Notes under the pieces: model-generated
What the model saw: only the letters and a program-made list of their open reading frames with translations
Database searches by the model: none
What the model was told of the DNA's origin: nothing
Program-made: the position numbers and the translations under genes
Part shown: positions 10,262 to 34,888 of the stretch, in pieces
Layout: every line of letters starts with the position of its first letter
Position numbering within the stretch: the first letter of the stretch is position 1
NCBI RefSeq assembly: GCF_003382365.1
Contig: NZ_QTSU01000001.1
Location: 1,178,001-1,242,000 of the forward strand
From: Lysobacter silvisoli
GTDB taxonomy: Bacteria > Pseudomonadota > Gammaproteobacteria > Xanthomonadales > Xanthomonadaceae
Length of the DNA: 64,000 bases
Direction: 5' to 3'

Positions 10262-11839
10262 TCATGACGCATGCGCAGGCTCCGATGTCTCGTCGATCGC
10301 AGCCGGCCCGCGCAGGAGCACGAACACGAACAGCAGCGCCATGACCGCCGCGCCCGCCCACATCGCCTGTTGCCAGCCGTCGACGAAGGCCTGACGGGCG
10401 GCGCTTTGCAGCGCGGTCGCATACGGCGCACCGTTCGCCACCTCCATCGCGTTGGCGATGCCGCGCTGCGCAGCCGCGGCGGCATCGGCCGACAAACCTG
10501 GCGGCGCGGCGAACGCAGTGGCGTAGCCGGCCGAGAAAACGGCGCCCAGCAGGGCCACCCCCAGGGCGGTTCCGAATTCGCGCGTGACATCATTGAGCGC
10601 GGATGCCACGCCTTGTCGGTCGTTGGGCAGCGAACGAGTGATGGCTTCGGTGGAAGGCGCCATCGACAACCCCATGCCGATGCCCATGACGATCATCCCG
10701 GGCAGGACGCTGAGATAGCCGCCCGGTACGGACACCTGCAGCGCCATCATCGCCAGACCGATGGCACCGAGCAGGATGCCGCCGGCCATGGTCATGCGCG
10801 CGCCGATGCGCGCGGCCAGGCGCGGAGCCACGCCCGAGAAACCCATCATCAATACCGCCATGGGCATCAAGCCCAGCGTGGCCCTGAGCCCCGACCAGCC
10901 CAATACCGCCTGAAAGAACGGGTAGAGCACGATGAACACGCCGCTTTGCACGCCGAACCAGATCAACAGCGAAACCGATCCGCTGGTCAGCCGGCGCTGG
11001 CGAAACAGTCGTACGTCCAGCAGGGGAGCGGGGTGCCGACGTTCCCAGGCCACGAACGCCACGCTGGCGGCAGCACCGAACGCGGCGGCGCTTAGCGTCC
11101 CAATCGCAGACCAACCCACGACCGGTCCCTCGTGCAGCGCGAACGTCCAAGCCATCACCGCGATGATCGACAGCAGCGCACCTACCAGGTCGAATGCGTG
11201 CATCGGCCGCTCCCGTGAGTCGGGAACCGAGCGGATTGTCATCACCAGGGCGATCAGGACCAGCACGACCGGCAATGCGAACAGCCAGCGCCAGCTCAAG
11301 TAGTCGACCAGCACAGCGGAAAGGAACATGCCAATCACGCCACCGCCGCCGGCGACGCCCGTCCATACCCCGATTGCCTTCGAACGCTCGCTCTCCGGGA
11401 AGATGGAGGTGATCAGGGACAGCGTGACCGGCATGATCGCTGCCGCGCCGACACCGCTGAGGAAGCGCGCCGCGAGCATCACCGGCGTGCTGGGCGCCAG
11501 CGCCGAAGCCATGTTGGCCACACCGAACACGATCAGGCCGGCGACCAGCACCGGCTTGCGCCCCCAACGGTCGCCGACGGCGCCCAGCGGCAGCAGCAGT
11601 GCCGCCAGCGTGATCGCGTAGGTGTTGATCATCCAGAGGACCTGGCTCTGCGAAGCGTCTAGGTCCACAGCCAACGGCGGCTGGGCCACGTTGAGCCCGG
11701 TGACGGCGGCGATGACCGCCATCAGGGCGATGCAGACCGCGATCAGGAGGATTCGGCGCTCGCGCGGGCCTGGCACGGTCTGAGCAGGCGAGGATGTGGC
11801 GCCCGATTCGATGGCGGGCTGCCGTGTGGCGGTGGACAT
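10262..11839 (-). CDS. DHA2-type MFS multidrug exporter (EmrB/QacA-like)
   Basis: This 525-residue transporter has about 14 transmembrane helices. It carries the MFS loop motif LGAVGDRWGRKPVLVAG (about residues 80-96) and the motif C-like stretch VWTGVAGGGGVIGMFLSAVL. Such pumps export drugs by proton antiport. The native start ATG is at 11837-11839, directly next to the left end of the transposon, inside its target duplication. Its original ribosome binding site (AGGAG on the minus strand, 34761-34765) now lies beyond the right end of the element. Translation may instead begin at a TTG inside the transposon at 11902, which would add 21 residues in frame. The Rrf2 regulator at 34889 was its original divergent neighbour. 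Confidence 0.88.
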   Translation of the reverse strand: MSTATRQPAIESGATSSPAQTVPGPRERRILLIAVCIALMAVIAAVTGLNVAQPPLAVDLDASQSQVLWMINTYAITLAALLLPLGAVGDRWGRKPVLVAGLIVFGVANMASALAPSTPVMLAARFLSGVGAAAIMPVTLSLITSIFPESERSKAIGVWTGVAGGGGVIGMFLSAVLVDYLSWRWLFALPVVLVLIALVMTIRSVPDSRERPMHAFDLVGALLSIIAVMAWTFALHEGPVVGWSAIGTLSAAAFGAAASVAFVAWERRHPAPLLDVRLFRQRRLTSGSVSLLIWFGVQSGVFIVLYPFFQAVLGWSGLRATLGLMPMAVLMMGFSGVAPRLAARIGARMTMAGGILLGAIGLAMMALQVSVPGGYLSVLPGMIVMGIGMGLSMAPSTEAITRSLPNDRQGVASALNDVTREFGTALGVALLGAVFSAGYATAFAAPPGLSADAAAAAQRGIANAMEVANGAPYATALQSAARQAFVDGWQQAMWAGAAVMALLFVFVLLRGPAAIDETSEPAHAS

Positions 11840-11840
11840 G
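11835..11840. repeat. target site duplication, left copy
   Basis: GACATG immediately left of the transposon end is repeated at 34751-34756 immediately right of it. Because the last G could belong to the element end, the duplication may be 5 bp (GACAT), the usual size for Tn3-family elements. Confidence 0.85.
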
Positions 11841-11879
11841 GGGGTTCTGCCGAGATACGTGTAAAAATGCCCCACAGAA
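11841..11879 (+). repeat. terminal inverted repeat, left (39 bp)
   Basis: Read inward it starts GGGGTTCTGCCGAGATACG. It matches the reverse complement of 34712-34750 at 37 of 39 positions, with differences at positions 8 and 35. The GGGG start and the length are typical of Tn3-family ends. Confidence 0.93.
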
Positions 11880-11906
11880 CTCAAATAATTCTTTTGGCAC
11901 AATAAG

Positions 11907-12314
11907 TTAGCGGATATTTTGCGCCAGCCGATCGAGCGCAGGACACGCCTCTCCAGTCGCTACGTGATTGCACTCGTCCACCAACTGTTCCAGTTCCGCC
12001 TCCAAGAGCCGCAACTCTTCCATGCGTTGCCGGACTTCAGTCAATTTCCGCTCGGTCAGCAATCGCGTCTGCTCGCAGGTGCGCTGGCCTTTGACTTCGA
12101 GCAGGCCTGCGATCTCGTCGAGTCGGAACCCCACTGCCTGTGCCCGGCGGATAAATTGGAGCCGGCCGACATCGTCGGCACCGTAACGCCGCACGCTGCC
12201 CTGCGGCCGTTCGGGCTCCTGCAGTAGCCCTCGCCGCTGGTAGTAGCGGACCGTTTCGACATGCACACCGGCCGCTGAGGCCAGCCGGCTAATTGTCATC
12301 GCATTGGTGGTCAT
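11907..12314 (-). CDS. merR: mercury-responsive regulator MerR
   Basis: This 135-residue regulator has an N-terminal winged helix-turn-helix (ISRLASAAGVHVETVRYYQ, about residues 8-26), a dimerisation helix, and the three mercury-binding cysteines of MerR: Cys80, Cys115 and Cys124 (equivalents of 82, 117 and 126 in Tn501 MerR). It is divergent from merT across a textbook mer operator. It should repress and, with Hg(II), activate the merT promoter and control its own transcription. Its stop (11907-11909) lies only about 30 bases inside the left inverted repeat, so its transcript points out of the transposon into the MFS gene. Confidence 0.93.
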   Translation of the reverse strand: MTTNAMTISRLASAAGVHVETVRYYQRRGLLQEPERPQGSVRRYGADDVGRLQFIRRAQAVGFRLDEIAGLLEVKGQRTCEQTRLLTERKLTEVRQRMEELRLLEAELEQLVDECNHVATGEACPALDRLAQNIR

Positions 12315-12317
12315 GGC

Positions 12318-12348
12318 TTGACTCCGTACCTTGGTACGGAGATTACCA
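12318..12348 (+). promoter_or_regulatory. mer operator/promoter
   Basis: A -35 TTGACT (12318-12323) is followed by a 19-bp spacer and a weak -10 TTACCA (12343-12348). The spacer holds the dyad CCGTAC-CTTG-GTACGG, centred between 12331 and 12332. The long 19-bp spacing and this dyad are the hallmark of MerR-activated promoters, and the layout matches the classical merTPA promoter closely. Confidence 0.92.
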
Positions 12349-12355
12349 TGCCGAC

Positions 12356-12712
12356 ATGGCCCAGCCCCGATCTCGATCCTCCCTGCCTGCCCTTATGGGA
12401 GCCGCCGCCGCAGCGGCCGGCGCGTCTGTGTGTTGCGTGGTCCCTTTGGTGCTGGTCCTGATGGGCATCAGTGGCGCATGGATCGCCAACCTCACCGCCT
12501 TGGATGCCTGGCGCCCCTGGTTCAGCGCGGCCACACTGGCTTGTCTGGGTTGGGCGTTCTGGACGCTGTATCGCCCGGCGGCGCGGTGCAGGACTGACGG
12601 TGCCTGCGTCGATCCGGCGCAGCTGCGACGCCGCCGGCGCTGGCTCTGGATCGCCACCGGCTTGATCGCGCTGTTGCTGCTCTTCCCCTACTACATAGGC
12701 TGGTTCCTGTAA
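12356..12712 (+). CDS. merT: mercuric ion transport protein MerT
   Basis: This 118-residue inner-membrane protein has three hydrophobic segments. The paired cysteines of the first helix are present (ASVCCVVPL, about residues 23-31). A second cysteine pair lies in the cytoplasmic loop (CRTDGAC, about 78-84). MerT accepts Hg(II) from MerP and passes it into the cytoplasm. I chose ATG 12356, which gives the usual MerT length. It is the first gene after the mer promoter and is followed at 10 bases by merP. No merA is present to reduce the imported ion. Confidence 0.92.
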   Translation: MAQPRSRSSLPALMGAAAAAAGASVCCVVPLVLVLMGISGAWIANLTALDAWRPWFSAATLACLGWAFWTLYRPAARCRTDGACVDPAQLRRRRRWLWIATGLIALLLLFPYYIGWFL

Positions 12713-12722
12713 GGAGTTCCCG

Positions 12723-13019
12723 ATGCGCAAGATCCTCCTTGGTTTGATCCTCACAGCATGGATGGGGTTGGTCTCCGCAGCGCCCCCCAAGCAAGTCGTC
12801 GCCCTGCACGTGGAAAACATGACCTGCCCGGCGTGCAGCATCACCATCGATAAGGCCTTGGACAAAGTGCCGGGTGTGACGGCGCGCCGTGTCGACACTC
12901 AGGCGGCCACCGTGATCGTGACCTTCGATGCCGAGCGCACCAATACGGCGGCCATCGCCAAGGCCATCACCGATGCCGGGTTTCCTGCCACCGCCAAGGC
13001 GAGCGCGAACGGTGGCTGA
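12723..13019 (+). CDS. merP: periplasmic mercury-binding protein MerP
   Basis: This 98-residue protein has a signal peptide (residues 1-19, ending VSAAPP) followed by a heavy-metal-associated ferredoxin-like domain. The HMA motif MTCPACS (about residues 33-39) supplies the two cysteines that bind Hg(II). It is the periplasmic partner of MerT. An AAGGAG ribosome binding site lies 6 bases before the ATG. Its end abuts the next small gene, consistent with one mer transcript. Confidence 0.94.
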   Translation: MRKILLGLILTAWMGLVSAAPPKQVVALHVENMTCPACSITIDKALDKVPGVTARRVDTQAATVIVTFDAERTNTAAIAKAITDAGFPATAKASANGG

Positions 13020-13020
13020 G

Positions 13021-13233
13021 GTGCAACTGCAAAGCACGCTGACGTGCCCCGCGTGCGGGCATCAGGCAACCGAGACCATGCCGACAACCGCGTGCCAATT
13101 CTTCTACGAGTGCCCGGGGTGCCATACCTTGCTGCGCCCCAAGGCGGGTGATTGCTGCGTGTTTTGCTCCTACGGCACGGTGCCGTGTCCGCCCATCCAG
13201 CAAAGCAGCCCCTGCTGCAGCAACGTGGGTTGA
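13021..13233 (+). CDS. small GDCCVxC-motif cysteine-rich protein
   Basis: This 70-residue protein has two CxxC pairs near the N-terminus (CPACG and CPGCH), then GDCCVFCSYGTVPCPP (about residues 41-56) and a final CCSN. This pattern defines a small family often found next to mercury and other metal resistance genes. A zinc-ribbon-like fold or direct metal binding is likely but unproven. I chose the GTG at 13021; an in-frame GTG at 13012 overlapping merP is possible. As the last mer-strand gene, it ends 6 bases before the converging transposase gene. Confidence 0.8.
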   Translation: MQLQSTLTCPACGHQATETMPTTACQFFYECPGCHTLLRPKAGDCCVFCSYGTVPCPPIQQSSPCCSNVG

Positions 13234-13239
13234 TTCACC

Positions 13240-16206
13240 CTACGCGGCCAAGGCCAGAGGTAGTTCGATTTCGTAGGGTTCCGGGATCGCTTCCACGTCG
13301 ATGAGATAGTCGCCGAAGCGTTTGACGTGGCTGGTCACATAAGGACTGAGCGTAGCCACGTCTTCCGGGGTGATCTTCCAGCCCGCACGCATGAGCGATT
13401 TGATGATGCGGGTCTGCTCGACCACGTTGTGGAAGATGACGGCGTTGGACACCAGGTCGTTGTACTTGACCGCCTTCTCCTGTTCGAGCGGATCGTTGTC
13501 GGCGATGATGCCTTCCCCGCCGAAGAAGAAATGCTTGGCAAACCCGTTGTAGGCCTCGACCTTGTTGGTGGAGGCCGTGATCTGTTCGCGCAGCTCGCGG
13601 TTGGAGATGTACTGCAGCAGGAACAACGTGCGTACGGCCGCGCCCAGTTCGCGGAATGCCTGGTACAGGCGGTTCTTGCGGCTGTAGTTGCCCAGCTTGC
13701 GCAGCAGCGTCGAGGCGGCGATCTTGCCGGACTTGATCGACAACACCACCTGCATCAAATCCTTCCAGTGGGTCTCGATCAGGTCCCAATCGACCGTGTC
13801 GCGGAACAGCGGGTCGATGTGCTCGTAGCGAATGTCTGCGTCGGGCCGATAGAACTTGTAGTCCCGCCAGTTGCGAATACGCGGCATCAACTGGATACCC
13901 AGCAGGTGTGACAACCCGAACACCGGCAGCGACTGGCCCTGGGTGTCGGAATGCACGGTGTCAGGCTGGATGTCGGAGGTGTTCTTCAGCAGTCCGTCGA
14001 TGATGTACACCGCTTCCCACACACCGCACGGGATGAAGTGACTGAAGAGCGCCACGTAGGTGTCGGAGACGTGATGGTAGGCGATGCCACCGTAACCGCC
14101 GTAGCGAATGTGATACGAGGCCAGCAGGTTCTGATCGTAGAGGTCGTACTTGGTGCCGTCGGCGGCGGCGCTCTTGCCATCGCCCCAGAATTTGGGGAGC
14201 TGCAGGCCGGCATAGCTGTTGATGATGTCGCGGCAGGCCGCGGCCAGCTTGTTCGCGTCCACATGCCGGCGGTTGACGAACGACAGCATGTGCGCGGAGA
14301 CCGCACCGCGTAGGTGTCGCGCCGCCTGCGCCGGCCCGAGGTTGCAGCCGTAGGTGAACGTGGTGAGCACGTAGCGCTCAAGGGGCTGCTCGATCTTGGT
14401 GTCGGAGCCGGACAAGGGGCCGAAGTGCCGCGTCCAGCCGGTCCAGTGGGCGACATCGCACAGGATCTCGATGACGCTGCGCTCGCGCAGGCGGTCGAGG
14501 ATGGCCGTTTCCAGGGCACGGGCGTGGCTGCTCATCTCCTTGGCCTTGCTCCGCTTCAGCACCGGCAGCCCGTCCTCGCCGATGATCACCTGGCCGTTGT
14601 CCAGATAGCCTTGGTCGGTCAGCTCGGCGACCTGCAGCAGGCGCGATTGCAGCGCGTTGACGAACTCCACGGGCGTGGAAGGCAGATTCAACTGCCGGCA
14701 GTAGTCCGCCACCAGCGGTTCGCATTCGTCCCACGGCAGCAACTGGTGCCGGTAATCGGCATAGGTCTCCGAGCCGCGTACCGCCACGTCCCCGGATTTG
14801 AGTTCGTTCGCCAGCGACGAGAACACGCAAACCTCGAACAGGCGACGATGCACACGCTCCTCGCCGGCTTCGGTCCGGTGCACGATGGTCTTGCGCCACG
14901 GCTGGGAAGTGAACGCCAGATCGACCGGCTCGTCCAGCCAATCGCCGCGGGCACGTTCCTGGCGCAGGATCAGTTCGATGGCGTTGATCAGCGAGCGGTC
15001 TTCGGTCGTGGATTCCAGATCCAGGTGCCGCACCATCCGCAGGATCGTGGCCCGGTGGCTCTTGTAGAACGGCCACAACAGCGGCAGATGGTTGTCGCCG
15101 GCATGGGCGGCGATCGCCTCGCAGTCGGCCTGCAGTGCTTGTGCGCCGCCGCGCCGGGCGACCAGCTGGCGGATTTCGCGGCCGGCCTCGGTGTCGCTGG
15201 GATGGTGGTCGAGCACGCGGACCACATCCGACATGGTGGCCACCAACGCCTCGGTCTTCTCGCGATACCGCGCCCGCAACCGCTCCAGTTCCTCCCGGCC
15301 GCGGTTGTGGATGTTGCCCAAGCGCTTGATGAACATCTCCGCGAGGTCGTCGCGGGTCTGCACCCGGGCGCGGTGGATCAGGCACAGCAACACCGCGTGA
15401 CGCTTGGCCGGCCGGAAATCCCGCAGTTCGGCGGCATCCAGGGCGCGGGCTTCGGCTGCGAAGTGCTTGCGCTTGAGTTCGGGCACCTCCACCAGGTGCT
15501 GCTCGCTACCGACCAGGTTGTCCAACGCCGCAATGTGATCGAGCAGTTCCTGGAAGTGTTGCAGGGAGGCACGCTTCGGCAGCCGCTTGATCGCCTGCAG
15601 CGGGCTCTTCTGGCGAGGATCGCTGACCACCAACAAGTCATCCAGACGCTGCTTCTCGTCGGCCGTCAACCGTCCCGCAATCAGCGCAAAGTAACGGCCA
15701 TTGACGAGCGTGCGGATGCGCCGGGCCATGCGATCCAACGCGGAGAACGCCGGCAACTCGATGCGGTCGCGCACCAGTTGTTCGATCGCGACATTGATGA
15801 GGTCTGCCGGATTGTCCATGACGGCGGCCGCGTCGTTCATGGCGCGGGCAGCCACGCCGAGGCCGCCGTCGGCATAGGCGCGCACCTGCAGGTAGGCACG
15901 GATGCGCTGGTAGTAGCGATACCGCTTGTTGGGTGCGACCGGCGCCGGTTTCACCTGCACCCTGTACTTCAGTTCGCCGCGGATGTGACGCACCACCGCC
16001 GCGGGCACTTCCTCCAGGGCCGGAAAATAGCCCAGTCGCTGGAACGCCTTCAGCAGGACGGCCAGGGTCAGGCGGTGCGCGGGCTGCCGTGCCTGTTCGG
16101 CGACGAAAGTCAGTTCGGCTTCGGTGGGGGTGTAGGCGGCGACCAGTTCGCGGACGACGGGATTGCGCTTGAACTGGGGATACGCGGTCCGTTCGATCGA
16201 CGCCAT
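13240..16206 (-). CDS. tnpA: Tn3-family DDE transposase TnpA
   Basis: This 988-residue protein has the typical Tn3 transposase length. The N-terminal DUF4158-like DNA-binding region begins MASIERTAYPQFKR, and the C-terminal catalytic domain contains GDGKSAAADGTKYD, VHSDTQGQSLPVFGLSHLLG and a late acidic region near EAYNGFAKHFFFGGEG, in line with the DDE triad. It performs replicative transposition, making cointegrates. The frame is intact, with no stops. It reads toward the mer genes and starts 15 bases from the stop of the tyrosine recombinase gene on the same strand, so the two may be co-transcribed. Confidence 0.97.
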   Translation of the reverse strand: MASIERTAYPQFKRNPVVRELVAAYTPTEAELTFVAEQARQPAHRLTLAVLLKAFQRLGYFPALEEVPAAVVRHIRGELKYRVQVKPAPVAPNKRYRYYQRIRAYLQVRAYADGGLGVAARAMNDAAAVMDNPADLINVAIEQLVRDRIELPAFSALDRMARRIRTLVNGRYFALIAGRLTADEKQRLDDLLVVSDPRQKSPLQAIKRLPKRASLQHFQELLDHIAALDNLVGSEQHLVEVPELKRKHFAAEARALDAAELRDFRPAKRHAVLLCLIHRARVQTRDDLAEMFIKRLGNIHNRGREELERLRARYREKTEALVATMSDVVRVLDHHPSDTEAGREIRQLVARRGGAQALQADCEAIAAHAGDNHLPLLWPFYKSHRATILRMVRHLDLESTTEDRSLINAIELILRQERARGDWLDEPVDLAFTSQPWRKTIVHRTEAGEERVHRRLFEVCVFSSLANELKSGDVAVRGSETYADYRHQLLPWDECEPLVADYCRQLNLPSTPVEFVNALQSRLLQVAELTDQGYLDNGQVIIGEDGLPVLKRSKAKEMSSHARALETAILDRLRERSVIEILCDVAHWTGWTRHFGPLSGSDTKIEQPLERYVLTTFTYGCNLGPAQAARHLRGAVSAHMLSFVNRRHVDANKLAAACRDIINSYAGLQLPKFWGDGKSAAADGTKYDLYDQNLLASYHIRYGGYGGIAYHHVSDTYVALFSHFIPCGVWEAVYIIDGLLKNTSDIQPDTVHSDTQGQSLPVFGLSHLLGIQLMPRIRNWRDYKFYRPDADIRYEHIDPLFRDTVDWDLIETHWKDLMQVVLSIKSGKIAASTLLRKLGNYSRKNRLYQAFRELGAAVRTLFLLQYISNRELREQITASTNKVEAYNGFAKHFFFGGEGIIADNDPLEQEKAVKYNDLVSNAVIFHNVVEQTRIIKSLMRAGWKITPEDVATLSPYVTSHVKRFGDYLIDVEAIPEPYEIELPLALAA

Positions 16207-16221
16207 TGAAGCCTCATTCGG

Positions 16222-17175
16222 TCAGGGTGCGGGTAACGCCGGCGGCGGCAAGCTCGCCTCGATGCGCTGGCGCGCAAACGGGTCGCTGCCGTCGAGGTAG
16301 CGCATGGCCGAGTGCACGTCGCGCCAGCCGACGTATTCCATCAACGCCTTCACGTCCCAGCCGTTGGCATTGGCCCAGCCGGCGAAGCCGCGGCGCAGGG
16401 AGTGGCTGCTGTAATCCGCCGCATCCGGGAGCCCCGCCGCGGTGAGCAAGCGGCGCAGCAGTGGAATCAGGCTGTTGGGATGCAGCGGCGTTTCGCTGAC
16501 GCGCCCCCAGCGGTCGATGCCGCGGAACACCGGCCCCTGCGTGAGCTCGGCCGCAGCCGTCCATTCGGCGGTTGCCATCACTGGGCACAACCGCGACAGC
16601 GCCGGCACCTTGTAGGTGGTACCCAATGCCTGGCGGTCACCCTTGCTGCGCGGCAGGAAGCAGGTCATGCCTTCGCCCGGGACCAGGCGCAGGTGTTCGA
16701 CTTGTACGCGGATCAACTCATCGCCACGGAAGCCGCGCCAGAAGCCCAGCAGGATCAGCGATCGGTCCCGGCGATGGCGCAGTTCGTCCGCATAATCGCC
16801 GCGGTCTCGCGCCGCCGTGATCGCGCCCGCAAGCCAGTCGTCCACCTGGGCTAGCCGGGTCAGTTGCAGTGGCTCAGCCTGGGTCTCGACCGAAGGGTGC
16901 ACGGTCTGGATGCCCTTGAGCACTTTGCGCACCAGTGGCGCCCGGGTTGGATCGACGAACCCGTGCTCGCGGTGCCAGTGCGCGAGAGCGGCCAGCCGCT
17001 GTCGCAACGTGTTGTTGGCCAACTGTGCGGCATGATCAGCCAGGTAGCGGGCCACGCTGTCCGGCGTGGCCGGCAGGTGGCCGCCCCATTCGACCTCGAA
17101 GTGCCGCAGCGCCGAGGCGTAGCTGCGCTGCGTGTTCTCGCGCTCGGCGGCCTCCAGGTACCGTTCCAATGTCAT
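16222..17175 (-). CDS. tnpS: tyrosine recombinase (TnpS-type cointegrate resolvase)
   Basis: This 317-residue phage-integrase-family enzyme has an N-terminal SAM-like core-binding domain (about residues 1-100) and a catalytic domain. Catalytic residues are visible as Arg in GFRGDELIR, His-x-x-Arg in SSHSLRRGF, and Tyr in HSAMRYLDGS. The second His position appears as Trp in YVGWRDV, a common variant. In Tn4651-like transposons TnpS resolves cointegrates at rst with TnpT. The start ATG overlaps the stop of the upstream metal regulator (ATGA, 17172-17175), so the recombinase is coupled to a metal-responsive gene. The name is assigned from transposon context and could be a different resolvase type. 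Confidence 0.85.
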   Translation of the reverse strand: MTLERYLEAAERENTQRSYASALRHFEVEWGGHLPATPDSVARYLADHAAQLANNTLRQRLAALAHWHREHGFVDPTRAPLVRKVLKGIQTVHPSVETQAEPLQLTRLAQVDDWLAGAITAARDRGDYADELRHRRDRSLILLGFWRGFRGDELIRVQVEHLRLVPGEGMTCFLPRSKGDRQALGTTYKVPALSRLCPVMATAEWTAAAELTQGPVFRGIDRWGRVSETPLHPNSLIPLLRRLLTAAGLPDAADYSSHSLRRGFAGWANANGWDVKALMEYVGWRDVHSAMRYLDGSDPFARQRIEASLPPPALPAP

Positions 17176-17603
17176 GGGCGGCACACCGGATCGGTGCACG
17201 AAGTCGAATCGTTGCCCGGGTGCCGCAGCGCCCCCAGGATGGTGCAGGTGCCGCGCTCGCCGCCCGCGCACTGGGCGATCACGCCCTCCAACTCGCTGGC
17301 CATTCGGGTCAGCGCCTCGATCCGCTGATGGATGTCGGCCAGGTGCGCCCGGGCCAGCACATCGACGTTGCCGCACGACAGCTTCGGATCGTCGTTCAAG
17401 CGCAACAGGCTGCGGATCTCCTCCAGACTGAAACCCAGCTCGCGCCCACGGGTGATGAAGCGCAGCCGTTCGACGTCGCCCGGCGTGTAGGCGCGGTAGC
17501 CGCTCCCCGTTCGCGTCGGTGGTGGCATCAGTCCGACCCGTTCGTAGTAGCGGATGGTTTCCAGGTGGCAGCCGCTGGCGACGGCAGCTTCACTGATTTT
17601 CAT
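17172..17603 (-). CDS. MerR-family heavy-metal regulator (PbrR/CadR-like)
   Basis: This 143-residue regulator has an N-terminal helix-turn-helix, SGCHLETIRYYERVGL (residues 10-25), and a set of metal-site cysteines: Cys12, Cys77, Cys112 and Cys120, plus two more in the tail. Cys12 in the helix-turn-helix and Cys77 match PbrR/CadR-type sensors of Pb(II), Cd(II) or Zn(II). The Cys77-Cys112-Cys120 triad is also compatible with Hg sensing. It is divergent from the FTR1 gene across a 19-bp-spaced promoter. I used the ATG at 17603; the ATG at 17609 is also possible. It overlaps the recombinase gene at its 3' end. Confidence 0.85.
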   Translation of the reverse strand: MKISEAAVASGCHLETIRYYERVGLMPPPTRTGSGYRAYTPGDVERLRFITRGRELGFSLEEIRSLLRLNDDPKLSCGNVDVLARAHLADIHQRIEALTRMASELEGVIAQCAGGERGTCTILGALRHPGNDSTSCTDPVCRP

Positions 17604-17614
17604 TCGCATTCTGC

Positions 17615-17645
17615 TTGACTCTGTAGTGGCTACGGACTTTACGCT
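17615..17645 (+). promoter_or_regulatory. MerR-type promoter for the FTR1/CDF/czc genes
   Basis: TTGACT (17615-17620) and TACGCT (17640-17645) are separated by 19 bp. The spacer contains an imperfect dyad, CTGTAG-TGG-CTACGG. This matches the layout of pbrT-type promoters, so the divergent MerR-family protein probably activates the + strand operon in response to metal. Confidence 0.85.
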
Positions 17646-17694
17646 GAGCCTGTGCCCGCTGCCACCCCGGCCGCGGCCTGCTGCGTTCGTGCCC

Positions 17695-26010: not shown

Positions 26011-26439
26011 CTATTTCATCGGCGCGATGCGGGTGATGGTGCTGTCCATGCCCTTGGACTCGAACTCGAATTCCACCTTCTGACCGGGCTTCACCGACGC
26101 CACCTGTTCCGGCGATGCCTTGAACGCCATGGTCATCGCCGGCCATTTCAAGGCCTCGACCGGGCCGTGGGCGATGGTGATCTTGCCCGTGCCGGCATCC
26201 ACCGACTCGACGGTGCCGGTGGCCATCGCCATCGTGGCCGCCTGCGCGTCGCCGGCCATTTGCTTGTGCTCGGCTTCGGACATCTGCATGTCGGCGGCCG
26301 TTGTTGCGCCGGCGGACGGTGCGTCATTCGGCATCGGCTGCTGAGTTGCCTCGGGCATGGGTTGTTCCTCGGTGCTGCCCGGTTGTTGCGAACAGGCGGC
26401 CAGCAGGACGGTGGAAAACACAATGGCTTGAAGTTTCAT
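26011..26439 (-). CDS. cusF: CusF-like periplasmic copper chaperone
   Basis: This 142-residue protein has a lipoprotein-type signal (lipobox LLAACS, Cys16) and a Met/Gln/Pro-rich linker. A CusF beta-barrel follows with the Cu(I)/Ag(I) ligands Trp99, Met102 and Met104 in KWPAMTM; the usual upstream His is near residue 91. CusF hands Cu(I) or Ag(I) to the CusB adaptor. It is the last gene of the minus-strand cus operon and converges on the czc operon with a 21-base gap between stop codons. AAGGAG lies ahead of the start. Confidence 0.9.
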   Translation of the reverse strand: MKLQAIVFSTVLLAACSQQPGSTEEQPMPEATQQPMPNDAPSAGATTAADMQMSEAEHKQMAGDAQAATMAMATGTVESVDAGTGKITIAHGPVEALKWPAMTMAFKASPEQVASVKPGQKVEFEFESKGMDSTITRIAPMK

Positions 26440-26523
26440 GTGGAGCTCCTTTGGTTGGTTGAGCGGGATTTGAACAACACGCAGTGGCGGCGTTTTCGGC
26501 CGCCACGAAACGACAACGCGATC

Positions 26524-26880
26524 TCATCTGGGCGTGGTATCGACCGGTGCAGGGAACACCTGGTCGTACCGGCGCACCTTGCCCTGGACGAGCGAGGCAG
26601 CCATGCAGCGCCCAGACACGTCCGTGCCAATCCGTGCCGTACCGACACGATAGTCGCGGAATGTAGGCGCGAACTTCGGGTTGCCTACTTGCTGACGGCG
26701 CACCAGTTGGACTTCCTGCCCGGCCGCCAGGGACGAAGCGCGTGGATCCAGGCAGACCTGCAGGTCACCATCCGACACGGATGCAACCGTGCCGAGGCGA
26801 TTGGCCGGATACAACGAGGCACAGGCACTCAGCAAACCAACGCCGAGAGTAAGGAAAGCAATGAAGAGAAAACGTTTCAT
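26524..26880 (-). CDS. small lipoprotein of the cus operon, unknown function
   Basis: This 118-residue protein has a lipoprotein signal peptide (lipobox LLSACA, Cys20). A compact beta-rich mature part has two further cysteines (QVCLD and GRCMA, about residues 43 and 92). I do not recognise a characterised family. Its place between cusA and cusF, with short gaps (43 and 84 bases), argues for a role in copper or silver handling in the envelope. GGAG precedes the start. Confidence 0.65.
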   Translation of the reverse strand: MKRFLFIAFLTLGVGLLSACASLYPANRLGTVASVSDGDLQVCLDPRASSLAAGQEVQLVRRQQVGNPKFAPTFRDYRVGTARIGTDVSGRCMAASLVQGKVRRYDQVFPAPVDTTPR

Positions 26881-26923
26881 GATGGATCTCCAATTCGAGG
26901 GGTGAGCGGAACGGACGCGGCGC

Positions 26924-29900
26924 TCATGTTGCGGTGCCCGCTTTGGCGGCGGGCGAAATGGGACGAGGCAGGAATCGACCGCGCAGCAGCAGGAACGCGG
27001 CCGGAATCACCAGCATCGACAGCAAGGGCGCGGTGACCATGCCGCCGAGCATCGGCGCGGCGATGCGCTGCATGACTTCCGAACCGGCGCCACTGCCGAC
27101 GAACAGCGGGAACAGGCCGGCCAGGATCACGGCCACGGTCATGGCCTTGGGCCGCACGCGCAGCACGGCGCCTTCGCGGATGGCCGCTTCCAGCGTGGCG
27201 AGGGTGGCCGGCTCACCGGCGGCGATGCGCCGCTCCCAGGCCTGGCGCAGGTACAGCAGCATGATCACGCCGAACTCGGCGGCGACGCCGCCCAGCGCGA
27301 TGAAACCAATCATCGTCGCGATCGACACCGCGTGCCCGAGCAACCAGATCAACCATAGCCCACCGACCAGCGCCAAGGGCAGACTGAGCAGGATGATCGC
27401 GACCTCGCCGAAGCGGCGGAACACGAGCCAGATCACCAGGAAAATGATCGCGAGCGCTGCCGGCACCACCCACTGCAAGCGCGCCAATGCGCGCTGCAGA
27501 TACTCGTACCGGCCCGACCACGCGATGCCGTAACCCGGCGGCAGCTTCATTTGTGCGGCGACGGCGCGTTGCAGGTCGGCGACCACCGAGCCCAGATCGC
27601 GGCCGGCAACATCGACATAGACGTAGCCGACCAGGCGGCCATTGTCGCTCTTGAGCATCGGTGGCCCCGGGCTGAGCGACACGTCAGCCACCTGGCCCAG
27701 GGTGAGCTGCACGCCACCGGGCGCAACCAGCGGCAACTGCATCAGCGCGGTCAGCGAATCGCGCTGCTCGCGTGGGTAACGCAGCACGATCGGATAGCGC
27801 TCGCGGCCTTCGATGGTCTCGCCGATCGGATCGCCGCCCACGACGGTGGCGATGAGCTGCTGCAGGTCGGCCTGGCTCAAGCCATAGCGCGCCGCAACCT
27901 CCGGCCGGATGCGCACGTCGACATAGCGCCCACCGGTAACACGTTCGGCCAAGGCCGAACTCACGCCCGGCACGGTCCTGGCCACGCGCTCGACCTCGCT
28001 GCTGAGCCGCTCGATCACGCCGATGTCCGGCCCCGACACCTTGACGCCAATCGGACTCTTGATGCCGGTGGCGAGCATGTCGATACGGTTGCGAATCGGC
28101 GGTACCCACAGGTTCGTCAGACCGGGCACCTTCACTGCGGCGTCGAGTTCGGCACGCAGCTTTTCAGGCGTCATGCCCGGCCGCCACTGGTCGCGCGGCT
28201 TGAACGTCACCGTGGTCTCGAACATCTCGATCGGGGCCGGATCGGTGGCGGTGTCGGCGCGACCGGCCTTGCCGAACACGTGCGCGACCTCGGGCACGGT
28301 CTTGATCATGCGGTCGGACAGTTGCAGTAATTGCCGCGCCTTATCCGCCGACAAACCGGGCAGCGCGGTGGGCATGTACAGCAGCGTGCCTTCCTCCAAC
28401 GGTGGCATGAACTCGCTGCCGATACGGCTGTACGGAATCAGAGTCAGTACCAGCAGGAGGCCGCTCAAGCCCAGGGTCAGTCGCGGATGCCGCAGCACCC
28501 AATCCAGTACCGGCCGGTAGCCGGCGATCAGCACCCGGTTGATCGGGTTTTCCTGCTCGGGGCGGATGCGGCCGCGGATCAGGTAGCCCATCAGTACCGG
28601 AATCAGCGTCACCGACAGGCCGGCCGCGGCCGCCATCGCATAGGTCTTGGTGTACGCCAGCGGTGAGAACAGCCGGCCTTCCTGCGCTTGCAGCGCGAAC
28701 ACCGGCACGAACGACAGCGTGATCACCAGCAGGCTGGCGAACAGCGCCGGGCCGACTTCGGTCGCGGCCTGCGCCATCAGCTGCCAGCGTGCTTCGCCTT
28801 CGGGCTCACTGCCGTGTTCCTCGCGCCAATGCTCCAGATGCTTGTGCGCGTTCTCGATCATCACCACCGCCGCATCGACCATGGCGCCGATCGCAATGGC
28901 GATACCGCCCAGCGACAGCAGGTTGGCGGTGATGCCCTGGTAACGCATCACGATGAACGCGGCCAGCACGCCCAGCGGCAGCGTGATCACCGCCACCAGC
29001 GCCGAACGCAGGTGCCAGAGGAACAGCGCGCACACCAGCGCCACCACCAGGAACTCCTCGCCGAGCTTGTGGGTGAGGTTGCGCACCGCCTCATGGATCA
29101 GTTCGGAGCGGTCGTAGACCGGCACGATCTCCACGCCCTTGGGCAGGCTGGTCTGCAACGTCTTCAATCGCGCCTTGACGTTCTCGATCGCGGTCAGCGC
29201 GTCCTTGCCCGTGCGCAGCACGATCACACCGCCGGCGACTTCGCCTTCGCCGTCCAGTTCGGCGATGCCACGGCGGAAAGTCGGGCCGCGAGTGATCGTA
29301 GCGACCTCGCCCAGCAGCACCGGCACGCCATCCGCGGTGCTGATCGGCACCTGCTCGAAGGCTTCCTGACTGCGCAGGTAGCCTTCGCTGCGCACCATCA
29401 ACTCGGCTTCGCCTTGTTCGATGACCGAACCGCCGGTAGCGCCGTTGGCCGCATCGACCGCCTCGATCAATTGCGCCACGGTGAGGCCACGGGCGGCCAG
29501 CGCCTGCGGGTCGGGGATGATCTGCCAGGCACGCACGGCGCCGCCGACACTCGCGACCTCGGCCACATCGGGAATGGTCTTGAGCTCGTAGCGCAGGAAC
29601 CAATCCTGCAAGGCGCGCAGTTGGCCCAGATCATGCTGGCCGGTGCGATCGACCAGCGCGTACTGATAGATCCAACCCAAACCGGTGGCGTCCGGGCCCA
29701 GCGCGGGGCTCACGCCCTGTGGCAAGCGGTCGCGGACCTGGCTCAGGTATTCGAGCACGCGCGAACGCGCCCAGTACAGATCGGTGGCGTCGTCGAACAG
29801 GATGTAGACGAAGGAATCGCCGAAGAACGAGAACCCGCGCACCGCCTTCACGCCCGGCACCGACAGCATCGTCGTCGCCAGCGGATAGGTGACCTGGTCC

Positions 29901-30085
29901 TCGACGATGCGCGGCGTCTGACCGGGCCACTGGGTGCGGATGATCACCTGGGTGTCGGATAGGTCCGGCAGCGCATCCAGCGGCGTGTGCCGCACGGACC
30001 ACAGACCGGCGATGGCGAGCAGCACCGCCGCCATCAGCACCAGCACGCGGTTGGCGATGCAGGTCTGGATCAGCCGGGCGATCAT
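26924..30085 (-). CDS. cusA: Cu(I)/Ag(I) HME-RND efflux pump CusA
   Basis: This 1,053-residue inner-membrane pump has twelve helices and two periplasmic loops. The helix IV region [16 protein letters not shown] (about residues 396-411) is the monovalent Cu/Ag type of HME-RND pump. Met-rich positions in the periplasmic domain fit the Met relay of CusA. It starts at ATG 30085, overlapping the cusB stop by 4 bases. With CusB and CusC it should expel copper or silver from the periplasm. It is intact. Confidence 0.95.
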
Positions 30086-31563
30086 GGCTGCGTCTCCGCA
30101 TCGGCGGACAGCACATCGCGGACAGTGCAATCGGTATCCGCGCCCGGCGCGAATTTCGGCACCAGCTGCATGTCCATGAAGGGCGACTTGCCGGGCTTGT
30201 CGAAGTGCTGGTCCGGCTTCATCGGGTCGTACCAGTACTGCACCGGGCATGAGCGCGCGGTGGGAGTAGAGGCAGCTTTCGACGGCACCGGCGCGCTGCC
30301 GGTGTTCGGTCCCTCTGCCGGCGGTGCTTTCGCCGGCGACACAGCTTCTGGCGCACTCAAGCGTTCCAGGGCACCCGACAGGCTGGCCTCCGAGTCGATC
30401 AGGAACTGACCAGACACGACCACACGTTCGCCGCCTTGCAGCCCGGCAAGGACCTCAGTGCGCCCACCACCACTGCGCCCGGTACGCACGCGCACAGGAC
30501 GGAAACTGCCGTCGGCGTTTTGCACGATCACCCGGCTGTCGGCACCGGTGGCGATCAGTGCCTCGGTCGGTACCAGCGCCACTGCCGCGCCGGCCTGCGG
30601 TTGCAGCGTCACTTCGGCGAACATGCCGGGGGCAAGCACGCCGTCGGGATTGCGCAGCACGATGCGCGCCCGCTGCGTGCGGCTGGCGATATCGACCTGC
30701 GGCAACAACGCTTCGACTTCGCCGGGGAAGGTCTGGCCTGGTACGGCGGTGACCGTCGCTTCGACCGGGGTGCCGGGATGCAGGGACATCGCGCTGGCCT
30801 GCGGAATCGCCGCTTCCAGCCAGAGCGTGTCGGTTCCGTTGACGCGGAACAGCGGCGTGCCCGGCATCACCGCCTGGCCTTCGCGGGCGAGCACCTCGGT
30901 GACGACGCCGTGGCTGGGCGCGCTCAATGTCACGCTGCCATCGCGGGCCATCCCGCTCGGTACGCCGAGCACGCGCAGGCGTTGCTGCGCGGCCGTTTGC
31001 AGTTCGCGTGCTGAAGCAGACTGCGCCTGCCGCAGCGCCTGGGCTTCGGCCAGCGCACTGCTCCAGCTCGGCGCCAGCAGCGAGGCGAGTGGCTGGCCTC
31101 GCGTGACCTGCGTGTACGGGGCTTTCACCTGCACGCGGCTCACGAGGCCTTCGACGCGGGCGCTCACCACCGATTCCTGGCGCAGATCCCAGGTCAATGT
31201 GCCCGGTACGCGCACGGTGGATGTCAGGTGGCTGACTTCGACGTGCGCGGTGCGAATGCCGACGTTCTGCTGCAGGCCGGCGTCGATGCGCACACCGCCG
31301 CCAGCGACTTCGTCGGCGTATTTGGGCACCAACTGCATGTCCATGAAAGGCGACTTGCCGGGTTGGTCGAAGTGCTGGTCCGGCACCATCGGGTCGTACC
31401 AGTACAGAGCCTTGCGCTCGGCTTGGCTCGCCATCGGCGCGGCAGTCGTCGACATGCCATGACCGGCTCGGCGTTGCGCCCACCAGTAGCCGGTGCCGAG
31501 CCCCACGGCCAACAGCGCAACGGCGGTGGCCGCCAATATCAAACGGATCCTCGTGGACGTCAC
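30082..31563 (-). CDS. cusB: CusB-like adaptor with two heavy-metal-binding domains
   Basis: This 493-residue membrane-fusion protein has an N-terminal membrane anchor (about residues 8-29) and a heavy-metal-binding domain ([19 protein letters not shown], about 54-72, continuing to about 85). The barrel-sandwich, hairpin and beta-barrel adaptor domains come next. A second copy of the metal-binding domain lies at the C-terminus (about 443-473). Each copy carries the YDPM and FMDMQLVPK signatures. The usual CusB has only the N-terminal one. The DNA of the two copies is also closely similar, pointing to recent duplication or conversion. It starts with GTG overlapping cusC by 4 bases. Confidence 0.92.
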
Positions 31564-32864
31564 GGTGTGCTCTCCTCGGGCAGCAGGTAAGCCAACGCCG
31601 CCCAGGCGCGGCCGAGTTCGCCCAAGTGGCGGGCGTGTTCGATGTGCAGTTCGATTTCATCGCGGCGCGCTTGCAGCCACGGCTGCAAGTCGCCGCCGCC
31701 GGCGTAGGCGGTCAGCGCGGTCTTCGCGCGATCGCGGGCCAGCGGGAGGGATTCGGTTTCCTTGCGGGCGACCTGGCGCTGCAGGCCCTGCCACTCGGCC
31801 AGGGCGCGGCGGACGGTTTCGGTCTGGACGCGACGCGCGTCCTCGCGCTCGGCCGCCACGGCGTCGAGCTCGGCGCGCTTAGCTGACACGCCCCGGTCCT
31901 GCCGATTGCCCGGGAACAGCGGCAAGTCGATGGCAAACTCGACCATCAGCATGTCGCTGCGCGACACGCCGTTCGGCGTCCGGTCGCGTTGCCCGTAGGT
32001 CATGCCGAGGCTCCAGTCCGGCCGTTTTTCCGCAATGGCGGCATCGACTTCGGCTTCGGCCAGGGCTTCGCGCGAACGCCACGGCAGCAGCGGTCCTTGG
32101 CGGTCAATCGAGGTCAGCAGCGCGGCCGGAGCGACGGGCAGTTCCGTCAACGCGGGCGGTGCGTCCTCGGCTTCCACATCCGCTGGATCCACACCCAGCC
32201 ACCGCGCCAGTCCGGCACGAGCGGCCTCCAGCGAGGCCTCCGCGGCATCGATCCGATTCTCCAGTTCAAGCGCTGCGGCTTGCGTGGCCAGAGTGTCGGT
32301 TACCGTGCCGGTGCCGCCGGCGAGCCGTGCCTTGGCGGTGCGTATAGCGACGGAAGCCGGTTCGCGCAGGGTCTGCAGTGCCACCACTTCGAGTTGGGCC
32401 GCCCACAGAGCAATCCAGGCTTCGGCGGCGCCGCGCCGAACCGCCAACCGCTCGGCAACCGAGAGCGCTTCAGCTTGCTCGATGCCGCGATCGGCCACGG
32501 CCTGCCGCGCCTGGCGTTTGGCGCGAGCCGGAAATTCCTGCATCACGCCGATCTGCTTCATGGTCATGTCATCGGCGCGGAAGTCGAACGCGTCGGCGCC
32601 GGTGACCGGCCAATTCGCCAAGCCCAGCGTCAGTTTGGGGTCGCGCAAGGCGGCAGCGCGGACCGCTTCTTCCTGTGTGGCCGCGATTTGCGACTGGCGC
32701 GCCTTGAGGAGAGGAGCGCGCTCGGCCGCCAGGCGCTGTGCGTCATCGAACGAGATGCCGGCCGCGAAGGACCAGGCGGGAGCGAGAATGAAGCCAAGGG
32801 CCAGCACCCACGTGGGCCAACGGCAGGCGCTGCACCTGCGGTGCAGCGAGAAAGGAAAGGACAT
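31560..32864 (-). CDS. cusC: TolC-family outer membrane factor CusC
   Basis: This 434-residue outer-membrane efflux protein has a signal peptide (about residues 1-33, ending WSFAAG) and two helical OEP repeats. ATG 32864 is preferred because GGAGGT lies directly upstream; an earlier in-frame ATG would place that sequence inside the gene. It is the first structural gene of the cusCBA unit, and the overlap with cusB suggests coupled translation. It forms the exit duct for Cu/Ag. Confidence 0.88.
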   Translation of the reverse strand: MSFPFSLHRRCSACRWPTWVLALGFILAPAWSFAAGISFDDAQRLAAERAPLLKARQSQIAATQEEAVRAAALRDPKLTLGLANWPVTGADAFDFRADDMTMKQIGVMQEFPARAKRQARQAVADRGIEQAEALSVAERLAVRRGAAEAWIALWAAQLEVVALQTLREPASVAIRTAKARLAGGTGTVTDTLATQAAALELENRIDAAEASLEAARAGLARWLGVDPADVEAEDAPPALTELPVAPAALLTSIDRQGPLLPWRSREALAEAEVDAAIAEKRPDWSLGMTYGQRDRTPNGVSRSDMLMVEFAIDLPLFPGNRQDRGVSAKRAELDAVAAEREDARRVQTETVRRALAEWQGLQRQVARKETESLPLARDRAKTALTAYAGGGDLQPWLQARRDEIELHIEHARHLGELGRAWAALAYLLPEESTP

Positions 32865-32935
32865 GAGACCTCCGAACACGCAACGACGAGCGCGCCGCCG
32901 GGATCGGCAGCGCGGGAATGAGTCGCGTTCGGGGT

Positions 32936-33328
32936 CTAGATCTGCAGGCTACAGAAGCGTTGTGCCGGCGGAGGATCGGACCGGCAGGTGGGCACGTCTT
33001 CGTAGTACTGGGCCTGCACCGGCGGCAGCAACGCCTCGGTCATGGCGAAGTGCAATGGCGGCAGGGCCAGCGCCGGTACCTGTGGTGCTTTGAGATCCGG
33101 GCTGGTGACGTGGTCGCGCAGGCAGTGCTGGTCGCATAGGGCTGGTGCCTGCGGATCGGGCATTTCCATGCCTTCGCAGCCCGCCATCACCATCTGCGGC
33201 GCTGGCGGCGTTTCGCTGATCGGGCATGCATAAGCGGCGAGCGCGGCCTGCTGGAACAGCAACGCCAGCAGTGCCAGCCACGCAAAGCGGAGGCGGAGCG
33301 AACGAGTCCGGAATGCGCGCAGTTTCAT
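32936..33328 (-). CDS. Cys/His/Met-containing secreted protein upstream of cusC
   Basis: This 130-residue protein has an N-terminal hydrophobic signal (about residues 14-33). Its mature part contains a CEGMEMPD segment, CDQHCLRDH (about 65-73) and two late cysteines, so several thiol, imidazole and thioether groups could bind Cu(I). I do not recognise a named family. It lies 71 bases upstream of cusC on the same strand and is probably the first gene of the cus transcript. A periplasmic copper-binding role is inference. Confidence 0.65.
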   Translation of the reverse strand: MKLRAFRTRSLRLRFAWLALLALLFQQAALAAYACPISETPPAPQMVMAGCEGMEMPDPQAPALCDQHCLRDHVTSPDLKAPQVPALALPPLHFAMTEALLPPVQAQYYEDVPTCRSDPPPAQRFCSLQI

Positions 33329-33651
33329 CGGCGGGCCTCGCGGCGCAACACGACGCCGTGGCGAGCGGGCGCCACGGACAGGTTACGCGTGAGAGGGGCC
33401 AAGGATGGTGACATTGCCGAGTGAGTGTACTGCTGACTGCCGCTTGGAAGCGCGGCGAGTCCGAAAAGTTCCTGGGAATGGCGGTTCCGTACTACCTGAC
33501 GGGCGCCATTTGCCGTCTGGGCGGTATCAGGCGGGATAAACCACTATTATCCCGTCTGAATTTATAGTTGAATTATACCGATCTCCATAATTTGATTGGT
33601 ATGTAATTACGTGGTATGTAATACATTACGAAATCGTCTGAGGAGACGGCC
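33329..33651. promoter_or_regulatory. cus/tnpT divergent intergenic region with rst-like site
   Basis: This AT-rich region holds a 13-bp inverted repeat pair, 33527-33539 and 33547-33559 (12 of 13 matching), with a 7-base centre ACCACTA. That is the arm and spacer geometry of a tyrosine-recombinase core site. Direct repeats GGTATGTAAT follow at 33598-33607 and 33613-33622, just before tnpT, and may be TnpT binding sites. In Tn4651-like elements the rst resolution site lies at this position. The promoter for the cus operon must also lie here, but I see no clear metal-responsive operator. Confidence 0.65.
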
Positions 33652-34692
33652 ATGGCCCGCGGCGGGTTGTACAAGAGCGATGTACAGAAAGCCCGCGACG
33701 CGTTGCGCGCACAGGGCAAGCACCCGTCGGTGGACGCGGTGCGGGTGGCGCTGGGCAACACCGGCTCCAAGACCACGATCCACCGCTACCTGAAGGAGCT
33801 GGAAGAAGAGGAAGGGCAAGGCCCGGGCGCCAAGGTCGCGGTCAGCGAGGCCCTGCAGGACCTGGTCGGCCGACTGGCCGGGCGCCTGCACGAGGAAGCC
33901 GAAGCGATCGTCACCGAGGCCCGGCAGCGATTTGAAGCGCAGCTGCAGGAACGTGGCCAGGCGCTGGAACGCGCCCAGCAGGAAGCAGGCGCGCTGAGCG
34001 CCCAGCTCCAGCGCACCGAAACCGCCTTCCACGAAGAACAGACCGCACACGCCGCCATTCGGCAGACCTTGGCCGAGCGAGTGACGGAAGTCGCGCAACT
34101 CGGCGAACGCATCGCCGGCCTGACCACGCGCCTGGCCGAGCACGAGGCCCATGCCCAATCGTTGGAGCAGAAGCACCAGCACGCCCGCGAAGCGTTGGAA
34201 CACTACCGGACCTCGGTGAAGGAGCAGCGCGAACAGGAGCAACGCCGCCACGAGCACCAGGTGCAGGAACTGCAGGTCGCGCTACGGCAGGCCAACGAAA
34301 CCCTGACCGCCAAGAACCACGAATTGCTGCAGCTCAACCGCGACAACAGCCAGTGGCTGGAGCGACATGGAAGAATGGAACGGGAACTGGCGGACGCCCG
34401 CCGGGGCATCGAGGCCCAGCAAAAGGAACTGGACGCGCTGCGGCTTACGGCTGCCGAGCACCAGGCCCTGCAAACGCGCTGGGCGCAAGATACCCAGACC
34501 CTGGAGACCGTACGGGCGGAGTTCGCCGCCACTCGCGCCGATCTAACGAAGGAGCGGGAGCGTCGCGAACAGGCCGAGGCCGAGGCGTTGCGCGCCGGCG
34601 TACGTTTGACCACGCTGGAGCAGTTGCTGGCGCAGCTGCGGCCCGAACCCGTCGATAATTCAAGCGCCCAAAAAAATCCGGCAACTCGATGA
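33652..34692 (+). CDS. tnpT: KfrA-like coiled-coil DNA-binding protein (TnpT-type)
   Basis: This 346-residue protein has an N-terminal KfrA_N-type helical DNA-binding domain (MARGGLYKSDVQKARDAL, GNTGSKTTIHRYLKELE, about residues 1-55). A nearly continuous Gln/Glu/Arg-rich coiled coil runs from about 90 to 325. TnpT of Tn4651 has this architecture and assists TnpS at the rst site. The gene ends 19 bases before the right inverted repeat. GAGGAGA precedes the ATG. Unlike in Tn4651, the recombinase gene is not adjacent but about 16.5 kb away, at the other side of the metal cargo. Confidence 0.82.
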   Translation: MARGGLYKSDVQKARDALRAQGKHPSVDAVRVALGNTGSKTTIHRYLKELEEEEGQGPGAKVAVSEALQDLVGRLAGRLHEEAEAIVTEARQRFEAQLQERGQALERAQQEAGALSAQLQRTETAFHEEQTAHAAIRQTLAERVTEVAQLGERIAGLTTRLAEHEAHAQSLEQKHQHAREALEHYRTSVKEQREQEQRRHEHQVQELQVALRQANETLTAKNHELLQLNRDNSQWLERHGRMERELADARRGIEAQQKELDALRLTAAEHQALQTRWAQDTQTLETVRAEFAATRADLTKERERREQAEAEALRAGVRLTTLEQLLAQLRPEPVDNSSAQKNPATR

Positions 34693-34711
34693 TTTCACGG
34701 AGGAAATGAAA

Positions 34712-34750
34712 TTCTATGGGGCATTTTTACACGTATCTCGGCTGAACCCC
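34712..34750 (-). repeat. terminal inverted repeat, right (39 bp)
   Basis: Reverse-complement partner of 11841-11879, with 37 of 39 positions identical. Its outer edge is CCCC at 34747-34750, followed directly by the GACATG duplication. Confidence 0.93.
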
Positions 34751-34756
34751 GACATG
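34751..34756. repeat. target site duplication, right copy
   Basis: GACATG matches 11835-11840. On the minus strand it contains the original ATG context of the MFS gene (ATG at 34755-34753), still 5 bases downstream of AGGAG (34761-34765). Confidence 0.85.
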
Positions 34757-34888
34757 GAGGCTCCTGAGTGTGTATCAATAAGAGCTACGTAATGGGGCAC
34801 ACGTTTTGTTTCTTTCAAAGATACATATTGATGCGGGCAGGGTCAACGCTGCGGCCGGGGCCGCTTATCCTGCGGTTAGGGAGACGCT
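34757..34888. promoter_or_regulatory. original Rrf2/MFS divergent regulatory region
   Basis: This interval was the gap between the Rrf2 gene (+) and the MFS gene (-) before transposition. It retains the MFS ribosome binding site AGGAG on the minus strand at 34761-34765. TGTATCAATA (34771-34780) faces GATACATATTGAT (34820-34832), giving the inverted pairs TGTATC/GATACA and ATCAATA/TATTGAT. These are plausible Rrf2 operator halves, but the operator assignment is inference. Confidence 0.55.

Follow-up and report, generated by a model that had tools for sequence, protein, structure and literature searches.

The DNA analysed here (the window) is a stretch of 64,000 nucleotides from the genome of Lysobacter silvisoli (contig NZ_QTSU01000001.1, positions 1,178,001 to 1,242,000; all positions below are counted from its first letter). 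It holds a metal-resistance transposon assigned to the Tn3 family, flanked on the left by minus-strand genes for a major facilitator superfamily (MFS) exporter and an S-adenosylmethionine-dependent methyltransferase, and on the right by a plus-strand gene for an Rrf2-family regulator (Table 1). The best NCBIfam models for the exporter are of the SmvA, EmrB, LfrA and QacA/B types, and it scores under the cut-off of every one (224.2 bits compared with 230.2 for EmrB). The methyltransferase gene may start at ATG 10242 (224 aa, 19 nt past the MFS stop) or at ATG 10272 (234 aa, overlapping the MFS gene); the interval used in searches, 9568–10245, is one codon longer than the frame from ATG 10242. 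The regulator scores 52.7 bits with the TIGR00738 superfamily model, short of the cut-off of 73.3. Rrf2 regulators that carry an iron–sulfur cluster hold it with three cysteine ligands, and the single cysteine in the 142 residues of this protein places it outside that group.

The limits of the transposon can be read directly. GACATG flanks it on both sides, as found by direct reading and by computation: the left copy is followed by GGGGTTCTGCC... beginning at 11841, and ...GGCTGAACCCC runs up to 34750, immediately before the right copy. The terminal inverted repeats are identical at 33 of 34 positions, both ends begin with GGGG, and the similarity continues to position 41 with two more mismatches. 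Exactly two copies of the 34-bp end occur in the genome of the organism at up to three mismatches, and a reversed-pattern control gave zero matches in the same genome. Tn3-family elements have terminal inverted repeats of about 38 bp that begin with GGGG, and they generate target duplications of 5 bp. With GGGG at both ends the duplication here measures 6 bp, and with one end a base longer it measures 5 bp (GACAT or ACATG), so that the initial annotation, which described a GACAT(G) duplication containing the ATG of the MFS gene, gave a fair account of it. On the minus strand, the left copy contains that ATG and the right copy belongs to the series AGGAG (34765–34761), CCTCC, ATG (34755–34753), which is the spacing that the annotation had expected on rejoining the flanks. 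The ends, the duplication and the stranded AGGAG–ATG agree with its placement of the insertion between ribosome binding site and start codon: a single Tn3-family insertion landed between the AGGAG and the ATG of the MFS gene. Our confidence in this insertion history is high.

In its present context the MFS start at 11839 reads GGCAGAACCCCC-ATG, with no AGGAG-type site ahead of it. The energy of pairing with the anti-Shine–Dalgarno sequence is −2.8 kcal/mol at this start and −6.6 kcal/mol at the stranded one, values equalled or bettered by 43% and 5.0%, respectively, of the ATGs in the window (n = 1604). The nearest upstream gene is now merR, on the same strand, with 67 nt from its stop to the MFS ATG, and the MFS frame stays open across this gap. 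Simple scans of 11780–12420 found no terminator-like site, and no sigma-70-like site on either strand; an outward promoter in the left end of the transposon was considered and none was found by the same kind of scan. In-frame upstream starts pair weakly (GTG, −2.2 kcal/mol; two TTG codons, −0.9 and +1.9 kcal/mol), and an in-frame CTG at 11941, within merR, pairs well (−6.4 kcal/mol). CTG is a rare start codon. An ATG or GTG lies in frame within residues −10 to 15 in 75 of 80 MFS homologues, a weak test that loosely supports 11839 as compatible with the native start and does not fix it there.

The element and the Rrf2 gene are separated by 132 bp, which hold the only sigma-70-like site in 34650–34960 (TTGACC-17-TATCTT; shuffled sequences average 0.3), aimed at the lost MFS start. 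We searched for inverted repeats upstream of related Rrf2 genes in other genomes (27 regions, reduced to 21 by merging those at least 75% alike), leaving out the sequence of the window. The repeat GTAAC-N7-GTTAC occurs in 17 of the 21 regions with at most one mismatch, and the best repeat in eight mononucleotide-shuffled sets reached at most 3 of 21. With two mismatches allowed it is present in 18 of 21, mostly directly ahead of the Rrf2 start codon, and these 18 sites were used to build an operator matrix. As a positive control, the Rrf2 paralogue of the host (locus L163), which is outside the matrix set, has two sites of 23.3 bits. These sites (L163:1750–1930) stand between this second host Rrf2 gene and a divergent oxidoreductase gene.

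When the matrix was run along the window, the top three matches among 63,984 positions all fell within 34772–34824. The best matches GTAAC-N7-GTTAC at 8 of 10 positions, and the site at 34808–34824 overlies the −10 hexamer of the stranded promoter-like site. Shuffles of the region reached the best score in only 16 of 5000 (mononucleotide) and 24 of 3000 (dinucleotide) cases, on which grounds chance was rejected as its source; the best and third sites together arose in none of 3000 dinucleotide shuffles. Scores at least as high as that of the best site occur at 17 of 1,017,197 positions in 80 loci with MFS homologues. On the side where the MFS gene now lies, the best operator-like site in 11841–12400 reaches just 4.3 bits. 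These matches support a reading of the 132 bp as a former shared control region, containing a putative promoter of the MFS–methyltransferase pair together with candidate Rrf2 operators, and binding of Rrf2 at 34772–34824 is predicted. The ends, the duplication and the pairing energies likewise support the earlier statement that the native upstream region of the exporter was left beside the Rrf2 gene, 22.9 kb away.

Table 1. Features of the transposon, its junctions and the flanking genes (positions in the window)
Feature	Position	Strand	Basis
SAM (S-adenosylmethionine)-dependent methyltransferase, second gene of pair, frame intact	9568..10242	-	Pfam Methyltransf_25 1e-10
MFS exporter, probably DHA2-type, 525 aa, frame intact	10262..11839	-	Pfam MFS_1 1.1e-52; ATG 11839 within duplication
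Target duplication GACATG, left copy	11835..11840		Direct reading, end alignment
Tn3-family transposon, 22,910 bp, GGGG...CCCC ends	11841..34750		End alignment; Tn3 transposase, tyrosine recombinase and KfrA_N protein within
Left terminal inverted repeat	11841..11874	+	End alignment, genome search
merR	11907..12314	-	TIGR02051 MerR 3.9e-42, 143.4 bits (cut-off 150.85)
merT	12377..12712	+	Pfam MerT
merP-like heavy-metal-associated protein	12723..13019	+	Pfam HMA
TnpA transposase, 988 aa	13240..16206	-	DDE_Tnp_Tn3 (PF01526) 4.3e-149; NF033527 768.9 bits (cut-off 500)
Tyrosine recombinase, TnpS-like	16222..17376	-	Phage_integrase 1.4e-10
Metal-efflux passengers: FTR1/cytochrome c protein, cation diffusion facilitator, two RND pumps and outer-membrane factors	17554..32879		Profile matches
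KfrA_N protein, TnpT-like	33652..34692	+	Pfam KfrA_N 2.9e-28
Stranded start codon: 13-codon frame ending at inner edge of inverted repeat	34714..34755	-	Frame reading
Right terminal inverted repeat	34717..34750	-	End alignment, genome search
Target duplication GACATG, right copy	34751..34756		Direct reading, end alignment
Stranded ribosome binding site AGGAG, 5 nt ahead of ATG	34761..34765	-	Reading; -6.6 kcal/mol
Best Rrf2-operator-like site of the window, GTATC-N7-GCTAC	34772..34788		Matrix rank 1 of 63,984 positions
Second and third best operator-like sites, overlapping (34796-34812, 34808-34824)	34796..34824		Matrix ranks 2 and 3
Stranded promoter-like site TTGACC-17-TATCTT, aimed at lost MFS start	34818..34846	-	Sigma-70-like scan
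Rrf2-family regulator, 142 aa, one cysteine	34889..35317	+	Pfam Rrf2 (PF02082) 3.4e-31

The explanation that we favour, with a probability of roughly 0.78, is that an MFS gene formerly divergent from the Rrf2 gene was hit at its start codon by one insertion of a Tn3-family metal-resistance transposon, which cut the exporter pair from a control region that the pair shared with the regulator. Ancestrally, the two genes would have faced away from each other across the 132 bp, and insertion at the ATG would have parted the MFS–methyltransferase pair from its promoter, its ribosome binding site and its likely Rrf2 sites. Rrf2 would now be out of reach of the pair, which would be transcribed by read-through from merR; the exporter would be translated either from an ATG poorly served by a ribosome binding site or from an upstream codon, which would add residues to its N terminus. 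Output would be expected to be low and unresponsive to the Rrf2 signal because initiation is predicted to be poor and the pair lies behind merR, away from Rrf2. The stranded promoter would be directed at the interior of the transposon and oppose the TnpT-like gene, and the stranded ribosome binding site is now followed by the 13-codon frame. We hold the loss of Rrf2 control over the pair with moderate confidence, and any effect on the cell with low confidence. The initial annotation had spoken of a rewired regulator–exporter pair; the scans support the separation of the pair from a promoter-like site and likely Rrf2 sites, and the change of expression is one that we infer. A bolder version, in which the host exporter pair has been switched from an Rrf2 signal (probably thiol or redox) to the mer unit, RNA from the stranded promoter runs against the TnpT-like gene and resolution of the element may thereby be tuned by a host stress regulator, seems to us improbable.

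Several observations weigh against the favoured explanation. The best operator score of the window, 12.2 bits, is under those of 19 of the 21 relatives (leave-one-out), the position immediately ahead of the Rrf2 start, which holds a site in most relatives, lacks one in the window, and common descent may be partly behind the recurrence of the motif, despite the merging of regions at least 75% alike. The match of the stranded ribosome binding site is by itself only moderately beyond chance, as 5% of ATGs equal it; the weight of the case is borne by the target duplication, the inverted repeats at the ends and the matches to the operator. No genome with an empty site was found among the genus, family and class genomes searched, because no relative searched carries the MFS gene. 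The protein searches covered 120 relatives and 20 genus, 369 class and 395 family genomes (overlapping sets that include the organism itself), with only the best three to four candidates per genome scored in the class and family sets. The gene was not seen in 19 other genomes of the genus, in 394 others of the family (E = 1e-90) or in 368 others of the class at the limits applied; among the 120 relatives, a limit of 1e-60 returned the gene itself plus just two matches of 35–36% identity (genomes G028 and G047). Furthermore, no MFS homologue lies within about 1.5 kb of any of 19 related Rrf2 loci (L092–L110), none of 80 loci with MFS homologues has this Rrf2 or methyltransferase in flanks of up to 6 kb, and the Rrf2–MFS pair is thus known from this genome only. 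Finally, 21 of 29 methyltransferase loci in the family have no Rrf2 gene within about 1.5 kb.

A related methyltransferase is encoded in 43 of 247 family genomes, counting that of the organism itself, and 29 loci besides its own were examined out of a longer list of places. In eight of them an Rrf2 gene lies within about 1.5 kb, divergently at L122, L123, L125 and L150 (L122 and L123 are nearly identical) and in tandem at L124, L127, L136 and L140, and all eight also carry a related oxidoreductase gene. The divergent loci resemble the window minus the element, except that the MFS gene is missing from them and the oxidoreductase, to which the window has no match, is present. The MFS homologues in named genomes come mostly from actinobacteria (57–68% identity; 80 loci kept of 195 relatives), and the six plasmid records matched at E = 1e-60 are all actinobacterial. 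In these other phyla the chosen upstream neighbour is an FAD oxidoreductase at 21, a cupin–HTH protein at 19 and a methyltransferase at 16 of 76 loci; four of the 80 loci (L013, L044, L065 and L080) were dropped for short or poor candidate frames, and one frame per locus was picked by composition score, so that some picks may be wrong. The oxidoreductase at the Rrf2 locus L108 best matches PDB entry 3fbs (‘Oxidoreductase’; 1.7e-106), with DepH next (3.1e-94), and one that neighbours an MFS homologue (L060) is closest to 4ntd (1.8e-75), which we take to be HlmI. The Rrf2–methyltransferase loci of the relatives carry an oxidoreductase of the kind of the dithiol oxidases DepH, HlmI and GliT (PMC11317636); the window differs from such loci in having no oxidoreductase match of its own. 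This pattern suggests a recurring gene set directed against dithiol-type compounds, and does not tie this MFS gene to Rrf2.

The comparison bears on a more modest account, in which the insertion is real but Rrf2 is a chance neighbour that controls only itself, so that the exporter lost a promoter and a ribosome binding site and not a regulator. The absence of this pairing from every other locus examined, the low operator score of the window and the 21 methyltransferase loci without a nearby Rrf2 gene all speak for it. However, the three top operator-like sites lie on the MFS side of the region, where one of them covers the −10 hexamer of the promoter-like site that points to the MFS gene, and the methyltransferase family does adjoin Rrf2 in 8 of 29 loci; we regard this account as rather unlikely. 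The opposite consequence is also conceivable, that the pair is expressed from the transposon as well as before or better, by read-through from merR or from an outward promoter at the end, and that the exporter has been switched on. Both frames are intact, merR lies just upstream on the same strand with no terminator-like site between, and the CTG within merR pairs well, rare as such starts are. Set against this are the lack of a sigma-70-like site in the scanned interval and the weak ribosome pairing of the ATG, GTG and TTG starts. MerR, moreover, represses its own promoter. An exporter switched on in this way is, in our estimate, a doubtful proposition.

The insertion itself could be questioned if the flanks had never been one locus and the element had arrived within a larger rearrangement, with the match of the two GACATG copies due to chance. 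The neighbourhood is accessory DNA, as described below, and no empty site was seen in the genomes searched, both of which would fit such a history. Yet the odds that chance alone would place the same 6 bp at both exact ends are about 1 in 4096 (assuming equal bases), the genome contains only one pair of such ends, and the right flank presents a start codon, a ribosome binding site, operator-like sites and a promoter-like site in fitting order. We therefore give this possibility very little credence.

Besides the mer genes, the passengers of the element are metal-efflux genes, and one of the two RND pumps is of the CusA/CzcA type. The transposase is about 86% identical to those of Xanthomonas plasmids (all 25 records among the matches listed), presumably transposases of the TnXax1 type. 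No plasmid record matched 80% of the element, and the best coverage was 45%. We label the KfrA_N protein TnpT-like by its position. Transposase and ends place the element in the Tn3 family, and it is a likely member of the Tn4651 (TnpS/TnpT-type) subgroup. Transposons of this subgroup have divergent tnpS and tnpT genes with the resolution site rst between them (PMC7157771). Here the corresponding genes are divergent, but the metal-efflux genes lie between them and the distance is 16.3 kb. At 33527–33559, ahead of the TnpT-like gene, stands an inverted repeat (13 bp, spacer of 7 bp) that may be a candidate recombination core; it shares only a 9-base match with the stretch before the recombinase gene. 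The element thus resembles TnXax1 and other Tn4651-subgroup Tn3 transposons, as described in PMC7157771 and PMC6304161, in its Tn3-type transposase (about 86% identity to those of the Xanthomonas plasmids), tyrosine recombinase and divergent helper gene, and differs from TnXax1 and the subgroup in its mer and metal-efflux passengers and from the subgroup in the distance between its tnpS- and tnpT-like genes.

To the right of the Rrf2 gene, the segment 36967–41624 is 81% alike over its full or nearly full length in four genus genomes, and mostly 65–70% alike, in pieces, in the other 15. Similarity to the four close relatives ends sharply at about 36963, and no window DNA from left of that point matched in the 14.5–15 kb taken from them; among the chosen genes of the window, only the hydrolase gave weak partial matches, in three of the four stretches. 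The DNA to the left of about 36963 is therefore accessory, because it is not found at that place in these relatives. One of them (G015) has 6.25 kb there; a part of about 1.2 kb aligns to contig C2 of the L. silvisoli genome, and for the remainder there were short matches only. Farther left, the stretch 3518–7051, by its look a GMC-type oxidoreductase and a P450, is 87–91% alike in only 2 of 19 other genus genomes (G006 and G018), and in G006 its second half occurs twice. A tRNA-Cys gene at 7563–7636, with a 93% copy elsewhere in the genome, may mark an integration site.

Loss or replacement of a gene's promoter through a neighbouring insertion sequence or transposon is a known kind of event, with ISAba1 upstream of resistance genes as one example. 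As in such cases, a mobile element here probably alters the control of an intact flanking gene; unlike them, the ATG has been severed from its ribosome binding site, and what is probably the native control region can still be read beside its regulator. The locus is thus an unusually legible case, with both halves of a probable regulatory region readable on either side of one insertion, so that the loss of control could be tested promoter by promoter. Judging by title or abstract opening, we found no publication on a GTAAC-N7-GTTAC operator for Rrf2 regulators with such partners among those listed, and this negative is a weak one. The motif offers a testable operator for the Rrf2 subfamily found together with DepH-like oxidoreductases and methyltransferases.

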